From Treponema sp. (lineage in GTDB: Bacteria > Spirochaetota > Spirochaetia > Treponematales > Treponemataceae), in the NCBI GenBank assembly GCA_003455655.1, contig DMQP01000207.1:1-16012 (forward strand): a stretch of 16,012 bases of DNA. Reading direction: 5' to 3'. Shown here piece by piece: positions 6,294 through 14,731 of this stretch. Each line of letters opens with the position of its first letter. The first letter of the stretch is position 1. The notes under the pieces were generated by a model. It had not been told where the DNA came from. It worked only from the letters and a program-made list of their open reading frames with translations, and did no database searches. The translations under genes and the position numbers were made by a program.

Positions 6294-8804
6294 ATGCTTA
6301 CACTTAAATTTGGCGGAACCAGCATGGGTTCTTCTCGCCGTATTCTTGATAGCGTTGATATTATGATTGGTCGCGCAAAAACTGACCGCATTTCTGTTGT
6401 TGTCAGTGCTGTCGCTGGAGTTTCAAATAAGTTGCAGGAAGCAATTGACGCTTGTGTTTCTGGCTCAAGTGCTTTGACTTATGTAGAACAGCTTCGTACC
6501 ATTCATACCGACATTTGTTCAGAAATAAAAAAAGAAGAAGCAGCCTTTGACACAGAGCGTGTTTCTAAAAAAATAGAAGCCTTACTTACCGAACTTAATA
6601 ACCTTTTGTCTGGTCTTGCTACTTTTGGTGAATGCCCTTCGACTGTTCACTGTCGCATTATGGGCATGGGCGAGCTTATGTGTGCTCCCATTGTAGAAGA
6701 AGTGCTTGTTGCAAAAGGTCAGAATGTTCTTTTGTTAGATAGCCGTAAATACATTTACACAACGGGTAATCAAAAAGAGGGTGACCCTGATTACGAACGC
6801 AGTGCAGTCGCATTTCAGGCTTTGCGTGAGGGTGCTCTTAGTTTTACTCAGATTTTCCTTTTCCCCGGATTCATTTGTTCTTGGGTTGGCGGAACTGGCA
6901 TGGAACCGGTTATGGGTCTTTTGGGTCGTAACGGAAGTGACTTTTCTGCTGCAATTGTAGGTTACTCTTTGGGTGCTTCAAAAGTAGAATTCTGGACTGA
7001 TGTTGACGGAATCTACACGGCAGATCCTCGCGTTGTAAAAGATGCCATTTTGGTAAAAGACATGAGCTACGAAGAAGCTATGGAACTTTCCTTCTTCGGA
7101 AGTAAAGTGCTTCATCCTAAAACACTTTCGCCACTTGCGTCTAAAGGCATTGAAGCATGGAGTCTTAACAGTCATAATCCCCAAGCTCGCGGAACAAGAA
7201 TTGGCAAAGGTCCTTTTGAAGACAGCGAGACAGGTCCTGTTCGTGGCATAAGTTGTTTGAAAGACTGTGCTATGATTAGTGTGAGCGGTTCTGGTATGAA
7301 GGGTCGCAAGGGTATGGCAGCTCGTATCTTTAGTGCAGTAAGTAACGCAGGCATTTCTGTTTTGCTTATAACTCAGTCTTCTTCTGAATACACTCTGTCT
7401 TTCTGTGTACGCAAAGCTTATTCTGCAAAAGTGCAAGATGTTTTGAAGGCAGAGTTTGCTCTTGAAATAAGCAGTAAAATTGTTGATGAAATAGAAGTTC
7501 ATGACGACTGTGCTATTGTTTCTATCATTGGCGACAACATGAAAGCTAAGCGTGGTGTTGCAGGAACATTCTTTGACTCTCTTGCAAGCCGTGATGTAAA
7601 CATTCTTGCTATTGCTCAGGGTTCAAGCGAACGCTCTATTTCTGCGGTAATCAACGCTGCAGACGGAGATATGGCAGTACGCATTGTACACCAGTTCTTC
7701 TTCAATACCGTTCAGTCAATTCAAGTCTTTGCTTTTGGAGCAGGAACTATTGGCGGAACTATGATTGACCAAATTCGCGACCAGCATGATGCTCTTCTTG
7801 AACAAGGCATAGATGTTCGTGTTATGGCCATTACTACAATCGACGGTATGATTTTAAGTGAAGAAGGTCTTGATCTTTCTAACTGGCGTGACCAAATGAA
7901 AAATCCTCAGTTTGAATTCAATTCAGACAAAAATGTGGATGACATCATTGCTTTTGTTCAAGATAAAAAACCGCTTAATCCTATCTTTGTTGATTGTACT
8001 GCAAGTTACGATTTGCCCGACCGCTATCTTGATATTCTTAAAGCTGGCATGAGCATTGCAACTCCTAACAAAAGAGCTAACTCTAAAGACATGGCTTTTT
8101 ACAAAAAGTTGCGTCAGACTGCAAACGAAATGCATGTACGCTTTTTGTACGAAACAAATGTTGGTGCTGGTCTTCCTATCATCGATACACTGCAAAATCT
8201 CTTTAAATCAGGCGACCGTCTTACTGCTTTCAATGGCATTATGTCTGGTAGCCTTAGTTACATTTTTGGAAAACTGGATGAAGGTAAAAAGTTTAGTGAA
8301 GCCGTTCTTGAAGCAAAACAACTTCGCTACACAGAACCAGATCCTCGCGATGACCTCAAAGGAACAGATGTTGCTCGTAAGGCGCTCATTATTGCCCGTG
8401 AGTCTGGAATGGAACTAGAACTTGACGACATAGAAATGCGTTCTATCTTCCCCGCAGATTTTAATCTCGAAGGTACTACCGAAGAATTCCTTAAGAAACT
8501 TCCCGAACTGGATTCCTACTTTGCAAACAAAATGGCAGAACTTAAAAAAGAAAATAAAGTTTTGCGTATGGGAGCAAGCATAAAGGACGGAAAAGTTTCT
8601 GTTGGTATGCTTGAAGTTGGCCCCGATGATCCGCTCTATGGTGTTCGTGGTGGAGAAAATGCTTTTGTATTTACCACTGCCCGTTACACACCCATTCCGC
8701 TAACTGTTCGTGGTTATGGTGCTGGTGCTGGTGTTACCGCTGCTGGTGTATTTGGTGACATTTTGCGTACAGTCAGTTGGAACGTTATGCGTCCTAACGC
8801 GTAA
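6294..8804 (+). CDS. thrA: Bifunctional aspartate kinase / homoserine dehydrogenase
   Basis: 836 aa, the usual size of the fused ThrA/MetL-type enzyme. The N-terminal kinase phosphorylates aspartate; the C-terminal dehydrogenase reduces aspartate semialdehyde to homoserine, feeding Thr, Met and Ile. Kinase motifs: KFGGTSMGS (5-13), GRNGSDFSA (211-219), FWTDVDGIYTADPR (233-246). Two ACT domains follow (about 325-395 and 405-470; ISVLLITQSSSE and VNILAIAQGSSE), the usual allosteric sites. Dehydrogenase: nucleotide fold FGAGTIGG (481-488), ATPNKR (589-594), and EPDPRDDLKGTDVARK (681-696) with the presumed catalytic D692 and K696. Both halves look intact. The start has no Shine-Dalgarno but a promoter ends 6 nt before it. 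It leads an operon with the 8817 and 10771 genes. ThrA versus MetL cannot be told from sequence alone; the gene symbol reflects the fusion type. Confidence 0.93.
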   Translation: MLTLKFGGTSMGSSRRILDSVDIMIGRAKTDRISVVVSAVAGVSNKLQEAIDACVSGSSALTYVEQLRTIHTDICSEIKKEEAAFDTERVSKKIEALLTELNNLLSGLATFGECPSTVHCRIMGMGELMCAPIVEEVLVAKGQNVLLLDSRKYIYTTGNQKEGDPDYERSAVAFQALREGALSFTQIFLFPGFICSWVGGTGMEPVMGLLGRNGSDFSAAIVGYSLGASKVEFWTDVDGIYTADPRVVKDAILVKDMSYEEAMELSFFGSKVLHPKTLSPLASKGIEAWSLNSHNPQARGTRIGKGPFEDSETGPVRGISCLKDCAMISVSGSGMKGRKGMAARIFSAVSNAGISVLLITQSSSEYTLSFCVRKAYSAKVQDVLKAEFALEISSKIVDEIEVHDDCAIVSIIGDNMKAKRGVAGTFFDSLASRDVNILAIAQGSSERSISAVINAADGDMAVRIVHQFFFNTVQSIQVFAFGAGTIGGTMIDQIRDQHDALLEQGIDVRVMAITTIDGMILSEEGLDLSNWRDQMKNPQFEFNSDKNVDDIIAFVQDKKPLNPIFVDCTASYDLPDRYLDILKAGMSIATPNKRANSKDMAFYKKLRQTANEMHVRFLYETNVGAGLPIIDTLQNLFKSGDRLTAFNGIMSGSLSYIFGKLDEGKKFSEAVLEAKQLRYTEPDPRDDLKGTDVARKALIIARESGMELELDDIEMRSIFPADFNLEGTTEEFLKKLPELDSYFANKMAELKKENKVLRMGASIKDGKVSVGMLEVGPDDPLYGVRGGENAFVFTTARYTPIPLTVRGYGAGAGVTAAGVFGDILRTVSWNVMRPNA

Positions 8805-8816
8805 GGCAAGCGGCCT

Positions 8817-10748
8817 ATGGTCATTGTTTTAAAACCGTCGATTACTCAAAGTGAAAAGACTCAGCTTAAAAACTATCTGACCAAACGCAATTTTAAATTA
8901 AACGAAGTGCGCGGAGAAGAAGAGACAGTTCTTGCTGCGGTAGGTAAACTTTCTCTTGATGTTCGTGAAGTACAAATGCTTCCTGGCGTAAGTCGCGTTA
9001 TTCCTATTTCTAAACCCTATAAACTTGCAAGTCGAGAGTTTAAACGAGACAACACGGTTATTACACTCAATGCCTCTGGACAAAACCTTCGATTAGGTGC
9101 AAGTCGAGTTTGTGTTATTGCGGGGCCTTCTGCTATTGAAAGTAAAGAACAACTTTTTTCTGTTGCACAAAGTCTTTCTGCAAGTGGAGCCGGAATTCTC
9201 AAAGGTGGTGTTTTTAGATCGACACTTTCGCCTTATGAATTTCAGGGCTTAGGTAAAAAAGCTGTAAAGTGGCTTTCTTTAGCAGGAAAAGAATTTGGTC
9301 TTCCTACTTGTACCGAAGTAAGCAGTGCTGAACAAGTTACGCTCGTGCAAGATTATGTTGATGTGCTTTTAGTCGGTTCAAAAAATATGGCAAACGGTGA
9401 ACTCTTAAAAAAGGTGAGTGCATCGGGTAAACCAGTTATTTTGTACCGTTCTTCCAGTGCAACTATAAAAGAGTTTTTGCTTTCTGCCGAATGTCTTTTG
9501 GCTAATGGTTCTGAACAAGTAATTTTGTGTGAAAGCGGAATACGCACTTTTGAAGGAACAACACGAAGTACACTTGACCTTTCTGCTGTTCCACTTTTAA
9601 AAGAGTTAACACATCTTCCTGTTATTGTTGACCCATGCAGTGCTGTGGGAAGTAGAGATAAAATTCCTTCTCTTGCCATTGCCGCTATAGCTTGTGGTTC
9701 CGACGGACTGGTGCTTGATGTTCATGCAAATCCAGATGGAGCTGTTTGTGACGGAGCTCAGTCTTTGTATGTGCAACAGTTTGACAAAGTTATGCACGAC
9801 ATTCAGGCTTTGTGCCCCGTTGTAGGAAAAGTTGTTTCTCGTGTGCATGAAGTAAATAAAAGTGCAAAAAAAGTTACTCGTGCAAAACAAAAGCAAGTGT
9901 CTTGTGCGTATTCAGGAACTCGTGGTGCTTATGCTGAACAAGCAATAAGTCGCTATTTTGACGGTCTTGATGTAAAGAGTGTCGCATTAGATTCTTTTGC
10001 ACAAATTTTCCAACAAGTAACTGACGGTAGTGTTCAATACGGAATGGTTCCCATTGAAAATTCCCTTGCAGGTTCAGTCTTCCAAAATTACGACAACTTT
10101 CTTCGCTTTGAAGATGTAAGCATTGTGGGAGCAGTAACACTTAACATTCGTCACGCACTCTTGGCTGTAAAAGGTGCTACTTTTGATGATATAAAACATG
10201 TGTATTCGCATCCCCAAGGATTTGCTCAGTGTAAAAAAATTCTTGATGCACATTCTGGCTGGACTCACATAGATGCTGTTTCAACGGCAACTGCAGCAGA
10301 CTTAGTTCATAAGGCAAAGTCAAAAGCTAATGCTGCCATTGCAAGTGAAGTAAATGCTTCTTTGTATAAACTTTCTGTTCTTGCGCAAGATATAGCAGAT
10401 GATCCGGGTAACTTTACACGCTTTGTTGTTATTGCAAAAGAAGGCAAAAAGTCTTCTCGAAAATTACAAAAGCCTAACATGGCAAGCTTTTTGTTTAAGT
10501 GTAAAAATGAACCTGGTGCACTTTGTCGTGCTCTTGGAGTTCTGGAGTCATACAAACTTAATTTGACTCGTCTTGAAAGTCGGCCCATTCCCGGAGAACC
10601 TTGGCGCTATTGGTTTTACGCAGATGCTGACATGCAAAAAAATGAAGTTGACAATCCCAGCACATACATAGACACCGTGCTTGATTCTCTGTCTAAAACA
10701 GTTGAACAGGTGCGTCTGTTGGGATTATATTCTGAAATAAGGTTTTAA
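8817..10748 (+). CDS. DAHP-synthase-like (probably inactive) / prephenate dehydratase / ACT fusion
   Basis: 643 aa with three parts. Residues 1-75 match the ferredoxin-like regulatory domain and about 76-335 the barrel of type I-beta DAHP synthase (as in Thermotoga maritima), in register over its whole length. The catalytic residues are mostly gone: Cys of AGPCS is S105, KPRTSPY reads RSTLSPY (134-140), GARN is GSKN (187-190), LKRG is LYRS (209-212), CERG is CESG (238-241), DPSHA is DPCSA (272-276), EVHP is DVHA (301-304). Only the last metal Asp (D312) remains. Residues about 360-540 are prephenate dehydratase with PIENSLAGSV (412-421), SHPQG (464-468) and the catalytic NFTRF (532-536). The ACT domain (about 553-635) keeps GAL (567-569) and ESRP (587-590), typical of phenylalanine sensing. 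There is no chorismate mutase. So it probably makes phenylpyruvate, with the front half as a regulatory or scaffold module. The start lies 12 nt after the previous stop with only a weak AGG. Confidence 0.9.
   Translation: MVIVLKPSITQSEKTQLKNYLTKRNFKLNEVRGEEETVLAAVGKLSLDVREVQMLPGVSRVIPISKPYKLASREFKRDNTVITLNASGQNLRLGASRVCVIAGPSAIESKEQLFSVAQSLSASGAGILKGGVFRSTLSPYEFQGLGKKAVKWLSLAGKEFGLPTCTEVSSAEQVTLVQDYVDVLLVGSKNMANGELLKKVSASGKPVILYRSSSATIKEFLLSAECLLANGSEQVILCESGIRTFEGTTRSTLDLSAVPLLKELTHLPVIVDPCSAVGSRDKIPSLAIAAIACGSDGLVLDVHANPDGAVCDGAQSLYVQQFDKVMHDIQALCPVVGKVVSRVHEVNKSAKKVTRAKQKQVSCAYSGTRGAYAEQAISRYFDGLDVKSVALDSFAQIFQQVTDGSVQYGMVPIENSLAGSVFQNYDNFLRFEDVSIVGAVTLNIRHALLAVKGATFDDIKHVYSHPQGFAQCKKILDAHSGWTHIDAVSTATAADLVHKAKSKANAAIASEVNASLYKLSVLAQDIADDPGNFTRFVVIAKEGKKSSRKLQKPNMASFLFKCKNEPGALCRALGVLESYKLNLTRLESRPIPGEPWRYWFYADADMQKNEVDNPSTYIDTVLDSLSKTVEQVRLLGLYSEIRF
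10702..10731 (+). promoter_or_regulatory. Possible internal promoter for ilvN
   Basis: TTGAAC (10702-10707), 18 bp spacer, TATATT (10726-10731), inside the 3' end of the preceding coding region. It would give ilvN a leader of roughly 30 nt carrying the strong Shine-Dalgarno. In AT-rich DNA such matches occur by chance, so this is tentative. Confidence 0.3.
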
Positions 10749-10770: not shown

Positions 10771-11262
10771 ATGGAAAAATATGTGCTTTCTGTACTGGTA
10801 GATAACCATGCGGGTGTTTTGAGTCGTGTATCTGGTTTGTTCAGCCGTCGTGGTTACAACATCGATTCTCTTACTGTGTGCGAAACTGGTGATCCTACAA
10901 AGTCACGCATGACCATTGTGGTAACAGGAGACGAATACATTCTTGAACAGATTGAAAAACAACTTTCAAAATTGGTGGAAGTTATTTCTATTGAACACTG
11001 CGATCCTGCAAAGACAACTCAGCGCCAGACTGCACTTATTAAAGTAAAAGCTTCTGGAACAAATCGCTCTGTAATTATTGAACTGTGTAACATTTACCGC
11101 GCACACATTATTGATGTTGCAGAAAATTCTCTTATCATTGAAACAACCGGTAGCGAAGATAAAATTGGTTCTCTTATTCGTATGCTTGAACCCTATGGTA
11201 TTCTTGAAATGCTTAAGTCTGGTCTTGTTGCAATGGACCGCGGAGAAAAAGTAATTCGTTAG
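10771..11262 (+). CDS. ilvN: Acetolactate synthase regulatory (small) subunit
   Basis: 163 aa, the same length and register as E. coli IlvH. The protein activates the catalytic large subunit of acetohydroxyacid synthase, the first common step to Val, Leu and Ile, and confers valine inhibition. The N-terminal ACT domain (about 3-76) contains DNHAGVLSRV, RRGYNIDSLTV and SRMTIVV. The residues matching the IlvH valine site (N12, G15, N30) are present, so valine sensing is expected. The C-terminal domain (about 85-160) ends in the usual SGLVAMDRGEK region. It follows the dehydratase fusion by 22 nt with a strong Shine-Dalgarno. The catalytic large-subunit gene (ilvB/ilvI) is not in this window, unlike the usual adjacent arrangement. 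The TAG stop overlaps the opposite-strand stop codon (TTAG, 11259-11262). Confidence 0.95.
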   Translation: MEKYVLSVLVDNHAGVLSRVSGLFSRRGYNIDSLTVCETGDPTKSRMTIVVTGDEYILEQIEKQLSKLVEVISIEHCDPAKTTQRQTALIKVKASGTNRSVIIELCNIYRAHIIDVAENSLIIETTGSEDKIGSLIRMLEPYGILEMLKSGLVAMDRGEKVIR

Positions 11263-11717: not shown

Positions 11718-13445
11718 ATGAAGCGATTTGTTTTTATTTGTTCTTTGCTTTGTTGTTTGTGTGCCTGTAACCGTAATTCCTCTTTAATGCTTGAAGGTGA
11801 AAATTTACTTGCTCTTACAAAACAGTCAAAAAGTGGACTCATTGTTTCTGCTCAAACAGATACTCTTTTTTATCGTTTTACTGAATCTCAGCGTTCTCGT
11901 CTTGAAGCTTTAGCTCATTCTTATTCTGGTGCAGCATTAGATTTATTGTGTACAAAAAATGCTAAGCCCGAAACAGAATCGACAACTTTTTACGCAGGAT
12001 TTTTATACGAATCTGATTTTTCTGATGAATATAAACTTGAAGTTGATTTAGATGCACGGCCACAAGTTTCTGGTGTACTGTCACAAATGAAGTTGCCTAA
12101 AGTGCATGTACTTCTTTCGCTTGCACGCAATGCAGAAATTCCTATTGGCTTTTTTGTAAAAGGTGAAGCAGGATTTGCTTTGTCTTCTGTTTCTTTTACT
12201 TCTGCAAAAATGGGCTACGATTTTAGAGAAGCAATTCCGCTTTTTGCCTTTGGTCCTGACGGTGGTGGCATTGACCCTGAATCTCGTAACTTTAATTTTA
12301 CCGGTGGCTCTTCTTTGTTTGTTACAGAAAAATCTGGTCAGACTTTGCTTCCCTACATTTATGTTGAGTTTGCTCCCACACAAGATATAGGAACTCAAAG
12401 CAAGCAGCTTACTGTTCGTGCTTCTTATGCAGGTGAAGATTTTCTTTTGCGTCGTTCTCCTTCTTGCAATAGTCTTACTTTACAGACGGCAGCTTTTAAT
12501 TCTGCTTTTGGAAAACTTTCATTTACTTCTCACAAAGAATCTGTTTTGTGCGCTTTGCTTTTGCCTAATTCAGAAAAGTGCTTTGCTTTACAAGATGGAA
12601 TTGTTCAAGAACCCTTAGTAAGTGACTTGGGCTTTATGTTTGACTATCCAACTGCTTCTTGGCGTAACCGCGAGTACGAATTGTTCCGCTGGGAAGAGTT
12701 TCCTTCTGTTTTACTTTTTACTTTCAGAGACTATGCAATTCAAGATCAGTTCTTTACTCGACTTGCATACTATGTAGAAAAAACAGGTTACAAAGGAACT
12801 TTTGTTGATGATCAGTTTATTCTTACTGAACATGGCTACAATGCACATGACTACAAAGCAGATGATCTTGCACGCTTTTTTACAGATGCTGCAAAGAAAA
12901 AGGTAAAACTAAATAAGCATGAACTGCTTTTAAAAGATATTTTGCTTTACAACGGAATAATTGTTGCTGATGGTTCTGACGCATATAAAGCAGGAAGTGG
13001 TTGTATTATTTCTTTTAGCATGGAATCTGAACCGTACTTGCGCTATCAGCTTCTTGCACATGAAGGTTGGCACGGTATTTATTTTGGTGATGAAGATTTT
13101 CGCGATACTGTTGCAATGTGTTACCTGATGTTTGACCCTGTATACATGGATTTTTTGCAAACCTATTGGGCAACATACGCATCTCTTCAGTATGACCGTA
13201 GTGATGAATACTTAATGCGAAATGAGTTTATGGCTTACCATTTGCAGCAGGCGGTTTCTCAAATTGCAAATTACTTTATAACACGAGCACAGTGGGGTTC
13301 TGTTCAGCGAATACAAAAACAAAATGCAGATTATGTCATTGCAACAAAAGCAGAAGCTTTTACCGACACCGCAACAATGTTAAGTGACTATGTCTTTACT
13401 CGTTGGGGCTTGTGTGCCGGTCGCGTGTGGAATGTAAGTCGTTAG
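11718..13445 (+). CDS. Putative HExxH zinc metalloprotease lipoprotein
   Basis: 575 aa. The N-terminus is a short signal peptide (MKRFVFICSLLCCLCAC) with lipobox L14-C15-A16-C17, so the protein is probably lipidated at Cys17 and exported. Residues about 20-330 are beta-rich and unrecognised. The C-terminal part (about 330-575) is more helical and holds LLAHEGWHGIYFGDEDF, where H448-E449-x-x-H452 fits the zinc-protease HExxH motif. A downstream NEFMAYHLQQ (502-511) offers E503 as a third ligand about 50 residues on, a gluzincin-like arrangement, with H508 also nearby. I infer a cell-surface or periplasmic peptidase; the family is not recognised and the substrate is unknown. The start has no Shine-Dalgarno and a -10-like TAGCAT 6 nt upstream. 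It is monocistronic in this window, ending 10 bp from the convergent hydrolase gene. Confidence 0.75.
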   Translation: MKRFVFICSLLCCLCACNRNSSLMLEGENLLALTKQSKSGLIVSAQTDTLFYRFTESQRSRLEALAHSYSGAALDLLCTKNAKPETESTTFYAGFLYESDFSDEYKLEVDLDARPQVSGVLSQMKLPKVHVLLSLARNAEIPIGFFVKGEAGFALSSVSFTSAKMGYDFREAIPLFAFGPDGGGIDPESRNFNFTGGSSLFVTEKSGQTLLPYIYVEFAPTQDIGTQSKQLTVRASYAGEDFLLRRSPSCNSLTLQTAAFNSAFGKLSFTSHKESVLCALLLPNSEKCFALQDGIVQEPLVSDLGFMFDYPTASWRNREYELFRWEEFPSVLLFTFRDYAIQDQFFTRLAYYVEKTGYKGTFVDDQFILTEHGYNAHDYKADDLARFFTDAAKKKVKLNKHELLLKDILLYNGIIVADGSDAYKAGSGCIISFSMESEPYLRYQLLAHEGWHGIYFGDEDFRDTVAMCYLMFDPVYMDFLQTYWATYASLQYDRSDEYLMRNEFMAYHLQQAVSQIANYFITRAQWGSVQRIQKQNADYVIATKAEAFTDTATMLSDYVFTRWGLCAGRVWNVSR

Positions 13446-13455
13446 AGAGTCATTT

Positions 13456-14031
13456 CTATTTTTGAGCAGCTAGGTCAATGTTGTACATGCGTTCTGCACC
13501 TACCGTTGAAGGCGGTCCATGACCTGGTAAAACAACGCAGTTGTCGTTCTGAGAAAGAATTTTTGTATGAATGTTATTACAAAGCATTCGTTCTGCGTAT
13601 TTACTACCCGTTGAACCAATGGTTCCTGCAAACAAAACATCTCCGGTAAAAAAAACATTTTCAATGCGGAAGACCATACTGTCGCTCGTGTGTCCAGGAA
13701 GAGAAAAATAAGTTATGGTCAATCCTGCTTCAGAAATAGTTCCCTCGCCACCTAATACTGTTGACCAGTTGCCACAAACTTCGTAGTCAGCTGCATATAC
13801 TTTAGGCTTGTAAATGCGTTTTATTGTTTCTAGACCTTTAATGTGATGTTCATGATTGTGCGTTACCAAAACTCCTGTAAGCGTATAGCCACCGTCTTCA
13901 ATTTGCGAAATAAGTTCTGAAGTGACAGCTGCTGGGTCTACAATGAGTGCTTGCATAACATTAGGGTCATCATTAACAACGAGGTATGAATTGGTAAAGC
14001 CGTTTTTGCTTAAGTGATAGTATATTTTCAT
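13456..14031 (-). CDS. Metallo-beta-lactamase-fold hydrolase (glyoxalase II-like)
   Basis: 191 aa, the length of a single-domain MBL-fold hydrolase. Motifs in order: THNHEHHIKG (57-66), LPGHTSDSM (111-119, H114), FFTGDVLFAGTIGST (127-141, D131) and VVLPGHGPPS (167-176, H171). These match the glyoxalase II-like group that hydrolyses thioesters or related substrates with one or two metals. The first motif is unusual: canonical HxHxDH reads H58-N-H60-E-H62-H63, so the Asp that normally binds the second metal is His62. Metal use or substrate may therefore differ. There is no signal peptide, so cytoplasmic. Its ATG overlaps the stop of the upstream pentapeptide-repeat gene as ATGA (14031-14028), which indicates translational coupling and one operon. 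No specific substrate can be assigned. Confidence 0.85.
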   Translation of the reverse strand: MKIYYHLSKNGFTNSYLVVNDDPNVMQALIVDPAAVTSELISQIEDGGYTLTGVLVTHNHEHHIKGLETIKRIYKPKVYAADYEVCGNWSTVLGGEGTISEAGLTITYFSLPGHTSDSMVFRIENVFFTGDVLFAGTIGSTGSKYAERMLCNNIHTKILSQNDNCVVLPGHGPPSTVGAERMYNIDLAAQK

Positions 14032-14696
14032 GCTTCGGCCTCGTCTTCGCTTTCGTCATGCAGGAAAACTTTTGAATTTTTTATGCGGTCAAATAATGCT
14101 TCTCGTGTGTTTGAAAGTTTAAACGAAACTGCTTCTCTTAGTGAATCGTAAAAAATTGTTTTTTTGAGGTTGCAGTTTTTCATTGATGTGTTCATAAGAA
14201 TTGCTTTTATAAACTGACTGTTGTATAAATCACTGTCGTCAAAACTACATTGGTAAGCGGTTGTTCCATTAAAGTTGTTGTTCAATAAGTCGCTTCCTGT
14301 AAAGAGTGTGTTTATAAACTTTGCTCCTGCAAATGAACAGAACTGAAAGTTGCTTTGTAAAAAAGTGCTGTCGGTAAAAGTACAAAAATTGAATACACTC
14401 ATGCGTAGCCGTAAGTTACTTGCATGCATATTTGCAAAGGTGCAGTTTTGTATGCTGCAACCACAAAAGAATTTGTTACTTAGGTCAACGCCAGAAATAG
14501 AAAGACTTTCTATGTTAAGATTTATAATTTTGTCATGCGTAAGAAGATAGTTTCTAATTTTGTTTACTGATTCTGAGGGATTTTCTAAATGTTCAATGCA
14601 GTAGCCGGGTTCGTCTGTTATGTTGCCGTCATCATCTATTTGCGACAGAGCAAGTTTTTTGCAACCCAAGTGCATGCACAAATTCTTCTTAAACAT
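14028..14696 (-). CDS. Pentapeptide-repeat protein with N-terminal Cys/His cluster
   Basis: 222 aa from the ATG at 14696. Residues about 1-40 contain C7-x4-C12 and, 20 residues on, C33-x2-H36 (YCIEH), a likely small zinc site. From about 64 to 195 runs a pentapeptide-repeat right-handed beta-helix, with repeated A/C/S-D/N-F/L-x-x units such as CSIQN, CTFAN, SNFQF, SDLLN and SDLYN and many Phe or Leu at the central position. An acidic tail (HDESEDEAEA) ends the protein. Such proteins range from gyrase-binding DNA mimics (Qnr, MfpA) to scaffolds; no function is assigned here. A longer frame begins at 14723, but the promoter at 14703-14731 lies 6 nt before 14696, so I chose the shorter start. 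It is coupled to the MBL hydrolase and divergent from the zinc-ribbon/murI unit. Confidence 0.82.
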   Translation of the reverse strand: MFKKNLCMHLGCKKLALSQIDDDGNITDEPGYCIEHLENPSESVNKIRNYLLTHDKIINLNIESLSISGVDLSNKFFCGCSIQNCTFANMHASNLRLRMSVFNFCTFTDSTFLQSNFQFCSFAGAKFINTLFTGSDLLNNNFNGTTAYQCSFDDSDLYNSQFIKAILMNTSMKNCNLKKTIFYDSLREAVSFKLSNTREALFDRIKNSKVFLHDESEDEAEA

Positions 14697-14702
14697 ACAT
14701 AT

Positions 14703-14731
14703 ACTGTACGCTATTGAAAACATTTAGTCAA
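14703..14731 (-). promoter_or_regulatory. Promoter of the pentapeptide-repeat/MBL operon (leaderless geometry)
   Basis: Minus strand: -35 TTGACT (14731-14726), 17 bp spacer, -10 TACAGT (14708-14703), then 6 nt to the ATG at 14696. It interlocks with the opposite promoter at 14714-14742, so RNA polymerase can probably occupy only one at a time. It decides the start codon of the gene. Confidence 0.6.

Follow-up and report, generated by a model that had tools for sequence, protein, structure and literature searches.

The ferredoxin-like (FL) domain of the type I-beta 3-deoxy-D-arabino-heptulosonate 7-phosphate synthase (DAHPS) of Thermotoga maritima binds tyrosine or phenylalanine and limits entry to the active site (PMC5526877). 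Fusion of one pathway enzyme domain to another is known from the chorismate mutase (CM) domains of the Listeria and Bacillus DAHPS, regulators with little or no CM activity, and from Geobacillus, where the CM domain is active (PMC5526877). In mycobacteria, DAHPS (MtDS) activates CM more than 100-fold (PMC4281200). The only direct precedent found in the open-licence PubMed Central literature, at the level of titles and abstracts, for a fusion like the one described here or for a DAHPS pseudoenzyme was that of Song et al. (2005), who briefly called bizarre an AroQ-PheA protein of Shewanella oneidensis that carries an AroA-I-beta "pseudogene" at its C terminus (PMC1173090). The gene analyzed here lies in a 16,012-nucleotide stretch of DNA from a gut treponeme (Treponema sp., assembly GCA_003455655.1, contig DMQP01000207.1; the whole stretch is called the window) and encodes a type I-beta DAHPS joined to a prephenate dehydratase (PDT). 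It is the mirror image of the CM-DAHPS fusions: there CM regulates DAHPS (PMC5526877), whereas here the DAHPS part is very likely dead and the PDT keeps its residues.

The fusion gene is a single uninterrupted open reading frame (ORF) of 643 amino acids on the plus strand (8817 to 10748). It encodes an FL regulatory domain (residues 1 to 66; 8817 to 9014), a type I-beta DAHPS barrel with an erased catalytic site (residues 67 to 335; 9015 to 9821), a variable linker (residues 336 to 361; 9822 to 9899), a PDT domain (residues 362 to 545; 9900 to 10451) and an ACT domain (residues 546 to 643, plus the stop codon; 10452 to 10748). Pfam matches follow the same order, with DAHP_snth_FXD at residues 1 to 66 (PF18152, E value 1.5e-12), DAHP_synth_1 at 96 to 325, PDT at 364 to 542 (PF00800, 5.2e-58) and ACT at 559 to 604 (PF01842, 1.8e-5, slightly under the cut-off at 24.8 versus 27 bits); PRK11898 was matched at 228.8 bits, above its cut-off of 219. 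An earlier sequence-only reading of this DNA had closed the element at 9836 (residue 340), which holds as the end of the DAHPS part, but the protein itself runs to 10748. T. maritima DAHPS aligns with residues 1 to 338 (1rzm, E value 2.9e-74; 1vr6, 3.3e-74), and in a predicted model of the fusion, FL and barrel superpose on that enzyme over 337 residues at 1.8 Å. By descent, this part is therefore a type I-beta DAHPS, with an FL domain and a (beta/alpha)8 barrel related to that of T. maritima, although the latter is active while the window protein has lost the site and bears PDT and ACT. The linker has the lowest identity of the five segments to the 85% identical relative L006 (65.4%) and a predicted local distance difference test score below 50 at residues 349 to 356. 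The TRF motif of PDT and the GAL and ESRP motifs of ACT are present, and G567-A568-L569 and ESRP (587 to 590) are invariant across a 55-sequence alignment.

Nine of the ten conserved catalytic-site residues of the barrel are replaced, as read from the T. maritima (Tm) alignment and from the codons (all on the plus strand). Among the metal ligands, Tm C102 has become S105 (codon TCT; 9129 to 9131), H272 of the DPSH motif S275 (codon AGT; 9639 to 9641) and E298 D301 (9717 to 9719), so that D312 (Tm D309; 9750 to 9752) is the sole metal ligand, and the sole one of the ten sites, that is kept. The residues that bind phosphoenolpyruvate (PEP) and erythrose 4-phosphate (E4P), namely Tm Arg126, Lys131, Arg133, Arg186, Lys207 and Arg237, are all changed. 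K129 (9201 to 9203) stands for R126, R134-S135-T136 (9216 to 9224) for the K-P-R of the KPRTSPY motif (K131, P132 and R133), K189 (9381 to 9383) for R186, Y210 (9444 to 9446) for K207 of the LKRG motif and S240 (9534 to 9536) for R237 of the CERG motif; three of the six positions are still positively charged. Four of the nine replacements are mild (R126K, K131R, R186K and E298D) and the other five are not. The sequence-only reading had already announced the loss of the site and named S105, R134, T136, K189, Y210, S240, S275 and D301, all correctly, and only K129 has to be added. A sequencing or frame error was rejected, because protein P0001 (99% identical, 18 member sequences) matches it at all ten positions and L006 (85% identical, from the genome of L001, the metagenome-assembled genome [MAG] RUG11131) likewise departs from the canonical residues at nine of ten sites; P0002 agrees as well. 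The barrel of the window protein is thus very likely catalytically inactive.

To place this loss, we surveyed 274 genomes in the family of the window's nearest relative. The type I profile PF00793, which also takes in 3-deoxy-D-manno-octulosonate 8-phosphate (KDO8P) synthase, matched in 261 of them, and 155 fusions were read from 154 genomes, 40 of which had an altered DAHPS site. Further fusions exist in pieces in G006, G080 and G115; on contig C1 of G006, near 692083-693503 and 3034802-3035514, the DAHPS matches are broken up by either sequencing errors or real breakage. With the window added, 114 of the 156 fusion rows were canonical at all ten sites and 42 were altered, a class that includes L168, different at one site only; the strict class, in which the metal Cys or His is lost, held 33 of the 153 rows in the tree. 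This tree was built from PDT residues only, and therefore the DAHPS part cannot bias it, by a quick search with Shimodaira-Hasegawa-like approximate likelihood ratio (SH-aLRT) support only. Altered states required eight changes in eight separate groups, a count independent of the root (placed by hand on L010/L029 for drawing), and seven changes in a second PDT tree without the window row. One altered group, which comprises 28 rows, is not supported as a clade. Others are well supported among canonical fusions, such as L143 with L146 (support 100) and L053 with canonical L126 (99), and altered L097 groups with canonical L064 and L066 (92). The window pairs with L006 at a support of 100, and its placement beside canonical L112 has a support of 81. 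This distribution suggests that the DAHPS site was erased many times in the fusions. Nine fusions outside the window's clade (L131 to L137, L165 and L166) share one altered pattern, RRENRRRHED (C102R, K131E, R133N and K207R), which keeps the His, Glu and Asp ligands, and their site may have been refixed with a new role.

Positions conserved in at least 95% of the 114 canonical relatives served to locate the relaxation within the protein. The window keeps 19/19 of them in FL, 44/44 in PDT (including T534-R535-F536) and 19/19 in ACT (including E587-S588-R589-P590), as expected from the earlier description of PDT and ACT as intact, but only 100/137 in the barrel; relaxation is limited to the barrel. 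Mean identities to canonical fusions tell the same story, with 60.4, 55.2 and 58.7% for FL, barrel and PDT in the window against 63.2, 78.5 and 61.1% in the intact sister L112, which departs at 7 of the 137 barrel positions. The window losses are enriched in the active-site motifs, a set chosen by hand (19/45 versus 18/92 elsewhere, one-sided P = 0.005), and the same enrichment reached P < 0.05 in 11 of 15 altered rows tested, window included, the remaining four being L172, L100, L139 and L138. Almost all the losses are old, with 36 of 37 common to L006 (26 with the same residue), one found only in the window and none only in L006, and P0003, a member of the window's clade with 65% overall identity, shares 27. 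Erosion in this clade was therefore a burst before the split of the window and L006 and then stopped.

Since that split, synonymous change has been heavy, with proportions of synonymous differences (pS) of 0.42 in FL and 0.61 to 0.70 in the other three domains. The ratio of nonsynonymous to synonymous rates (dN/dS), only rough because dS is high, is 0.064 in the barrel, 0.066 in FL and 0.043 in PDT, all well below 1, which bears out the purifying selection that the sequence-only reading had proposed to look for, along with the recurrence of the same substitutions in homologs. At the level of nonsynonymous differences (pN), FL is as constrained as PDT (0.040 versus 0.052). A neutral simulation gave 0 of 1,000 stop-free runs at each of three distances, while the ORF is open in the window, P0001, P0002/L006 and P0003; hence, this is no pseudogene. 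High pS with low barrel dN/dS, the tighter barrels of canonical pairs and the simulation together indicate that the window barrel is relaxed relative to working enzymes, yet far from neutral. With the fold kept in the predicted model, nine catalytic residues gone, selection maintained and the losses shared with relatives, the domain has the marks of a pseudoenzyme.

Separate DAHPS genes are where the lost activity might be supplied. We read 90 further DAHPS-family loci, which comprised 2 KDO8P-like genes, 1 fusion fragment, 1 fusion of PDT with type I-alpha DAHPS (L218) and 86 separate DAHPS. The 86 form a selected sample, of which 34 come from genomes with an altered fusion and 52 from other genomes, and all are canonical at ten of ten sites; therefore, erasure is confined to fused copies among everything read (42/156 fused versus 0/87 separate altered by Fisher's test, with relatives treated as independent and L218 included). 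Four candidates were rejected as separate DAHPS: on visual inspection L215 (G214) and L217 (G206) resemble KDO8P synthases, L164 (G214) is only 25.7% identical to the window and L216 (G137) is the 5' piece of that genome's own fusion; G206 also has a true separate DAHPS, L187. After removal of misassigned loci, which lowered the first count from 36 of 40, 34 of 40 altered-fusion genomes were seen to carry a separate DAHPS, read and canonical in all 34, versus 79 of 114 canonical-fusion genomes, whose separate copies were read only in part (one-sided Fisher P = 0.039). The nearest relative, G001 (RUG11131), carries L003, a type I-beta DAHPS separate from the fusion and canonical at all ten sites, the kind of second, intact enzyme for which the sequence-only reading had proposed a search. 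No other PF00793 match was found in the intact sister genome G156 (L112), and no separate DAHPS in six of the 40 altered-fusion genomes (G127, G136, G137, G197, G200 and G214). A type II DAHPS as the hidden active enzyme was rejected, with PF01474 found in 0 of 274 genomes and in 2 of 14 controls.

We consider it probable that the window protein is the organism's PDT, carrying a noncatalytic FL-DAHPS module that was erased in a burst and is kept as a structural or allosteric platform for PDT-ACT. A PDT outside the fusion was not found in 39 of the 40 altered-fusion genomes (G178 has two fusions), and G190 has a second PDT of 312 amino acids. The fusion would have begun as a working bifunctional DAHPS-PDT, and a separate DAHPS in the cell would have left the fused active site free to be erased, for the most part, in the window's clade, in one burst before the split from the 85% identical relative. 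The folded FL-barrel would then have been held under purifying selection, most likely as an oligomeric, amino acid-sensing platform, with Tyr or Phe at FL, that positions and regulates PDT-ACT. There is no site left to block and yet FL is fully conserved, so the simplest reading is that FL and barrel now serve PDT. By analogy with the described systems, FL would be expected to bind its ligand and the dead module to control PDT, and an allosteric or scaffold role, as the sequence-only reading had proposed, appears to fit the data. In such a role the module would resemble the mycobacterial complex, in which DAHPS is an activating and feedback platform for a downstream enzyme, although there two proteins are involved and the DAHPS is the first enzyme of the pathway (PMC4281200).

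Several observations weigh against this explanation. Altered sites are only modestly associated with the presence of a separate DAHPS, and the count over independent pairs in the tree, too few at four, was not significant (median P of 0.25, on the uncorrected data). No other DAHPS was found in G197 and G200 beside their fusions (L058 and L057, respectively), which are altered at eight of ten sites; chorismate synthase and dehydroquinate synthase are present, but the assemblies are of unknown completeness and therefore the missing gene may only be unsequenced. Between the window and L006, the uncorrected pN/pS of the barrel (0.171) equals that of ACT (0.171) and is twice that of PDT (0.085), and its dN/dS exceeds those of barrels in three canonical-fusion pairs (0.009 to 0.032). 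Eight fusions (L064, L066, L075, L078, L097, L116, L117 and L157) match the window only from residue 61-66 and show no FL match; one of them, L097, is altered, and the other seven keep the canonical site. Dead barrels may also be conserved only because misfolding would harm PDT. Finally, the module can be dispensable, as it could be dropped in some lineages: G057 (L267) and G159 (L274) lack the entire FL-barrel at the corresponding position of the operon, and PDT alone starts at the end of the gene for aspartate kinase/homoserine dehydrogenase (AK-HSDH) and is followed by ilvN. Both group beside the altered fusion L139 (support 100), and the single PF00793 match in each genome is a separate ORF of 351 or 352 amino acids. 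In G059 (L265), which groups with canonical L060 (support 96), PDT also stands alone. These cases come from a PDT search in 80 of the 107 genomes with a PF00793 match but no fusion read, in which 57 had a PDT match and 12 loci were inspected; G192, with a PDT open frame of 349 amino acids, is a possible further excision.

The excised loci of G057 and G159 are the strongest evidence for the best-surviving alternative, a neutral leftover, in which a separate DAHPS made the fused domain jobless and it is drifting toward removal, kept only so as to fold without spoiling PDT. The FL domain points the same way in other altered fusions, which keep on average 0.936 of its conserved positions versus 0.992, and in P0003, which has lost 3 of 19. 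Against it, erosion in the window's clade has stopped, with a single further loss in the window and none in L006 since their split; the FL domain of this pair is as constrained as PDT, and the barrel persists in all eight altered groups of the tree (L097 without FL). We regard the leftover as a real but rather unlikely alternative.

Less probable still is regulation in trans, in which the dead barrel would form mixed tetramers with a separate type I-beta DAHPS and control its activity, as the S-adenosylmethionine decarboxylase (AdoMetDC) prozyme does with its active paralog (PMC5201418). The nearest relative does have a candidate partner in L003, of the same fold family. Nevertheless, the FL sequences of the window and L003 are unlike by eye, six altered-fusion genomes yielded no separate DAHPS at all, and in G195, G102 and G110 the only other match is type I-alpha, a subtype judged from match length. 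Mixed tetramers may form in the nearest relatives, but these three genomes mean that they are not the general reason for erasure, and the suggestion of the sequence-only reading that the domain binds a real DAHP synthase fails as a general rule. Natural metal-free KDO8P synthases work, and in that group, which belongs to the same structural superfamily, the metal Cys can be replaced by Asn (2nwr, the C11N mutant with bound PEP). A remodeled site with weak metal-free DAHPS activity, or one whose old pocket serves a new reaction or ligand, is nonetheless very improbable in the window in spite of this precedent and of the pattern shared by the nine fusions outside its clade. Most of the Lys and Arg residues that bind PEP and E4P are gone from the window as well, and the pocket residues vary among its closest relatives (K/C/R129, T/A/N136, Y/C/C210 and S/A/M275 in window/L006/P0003), leaving no conserved pocket in the clade and making the sensing of an intermediate there, also proposed earlier, unlikely.

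Upstream, on the plus strand, a bifunctional aspartate kinase/homoserine dehydrogenase I (6294 to 8804; NCBIfam PRK09436, 996 bits) ends 12 bases before the fusion gene and is also its neighbor in L001 and that of PDT in L267/L274; downstream follows the small (regulatory) subunit of acetolactate synthase (10771 to 11262, plus strand; PRK11895, 208.7 bits), also a neighbor in L001 and L002. The same flanking genes were thus seen at the few loci checked (L001, L267 and L274), with only the downstream gene in L002. The window is collinear with contig L001 of RUG11131, an uncultured member of Spirochaetaceae, in which all 13 genes compared from the window recur with their order unchanged, although the end of the locus truncates the first one. 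The named relatives are Treponema or Spirochaetaceae. Farther downstream, a putative 575-amino-acid lipoprotein (by eye; 11718 to 13445, plus strand) has no NCBIfam match and a 77% identical counterpart in L001, and the gene at 14028 to 14723 (minus strand) resembles, by eye, a pentapeptide-repeat protein.

A joined PheA-DAHPS query led to P0189 and to a CM-PDT-DAHPS family, in which the DAHPS barrel is likewise joined to PDT and its site altered in some members, although the architecture is separate, with the barrel C-terminal and no FL among the listed Pfam domains. Of the 120 such proteins that were listed, 105 have a canonical site. In the other 15 it is altered, in 12 cases at four or more of the ten positions and in three, including P0189, at one to three. 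The proteins with an erased site (P0201 to P0215) include several named from marine bacteria, and P0215 (Alginatibacterium sediminis) is altered at ten of ten. Named members include Agarivorans, Ferrimonas, Corallincola and Alginatibacterium, and no Shewanella is named among the 120. P0301, from the same list, has 1,036 amino acids and an additional PF01063 domain. In L054, L055 and L218 (G153, G165 and G164) a third arrangement was seen, in which a PDT that apparently lacks ACT is joined to type I-alpha DAHPS in open frames of 554 to 561 amino acids; L218 is canonical at ten of ten sites.

The Shewanella oneidensis AroQ-PheA-AroA-I-beta protein also carries a defunct type I-beta DAHPS part on PDT, but with another domain order, an extra chorismate mutase and the label of a pseudogene (PMC1173090), and it may be one instance of a repeated process. 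In the window, unlike that case, the erased domain is folded, under selection and within an intact ORF, and in the family the erasure recurs. Tentatively, with a confidence somewhat short of even, we propose that DAHPS-PDT fusion is a repeatable route to an allosteric domain, in spirochaetes and separately in CM-PDT-DAHPS, which would run from feedback control of PDT, through loss of catalysis after another DAHPS has taken it over, to a freeze as a purely regulatory module and sometimes to excision.

The window protein passes the curated NCBIfam cut-offs for DAHP synthase (365.4 versus 335 and 300.1 versus 267.75 bits), the misannotation that the sequence-only reading had foreseen, and a flux model that relied on such annotation would assign to the protein a reaction that it is very likely unable to carry out. 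The evolution of pseudoenzymes is as a rule reconstructed from a single inactive copy. The fusion family described here contains, among close relatives, one domain in its intact, partly altered, erased-and-frozen and excised states, with the FL, PDT and ACT domains as internal controls, and its sister proteins make the conversion of an enzyme domain into a regulator experimentally testable. If the repeatable-route reading is true, the family holds every stage of a domain-level conversion from enzyme to allosteric regulator.

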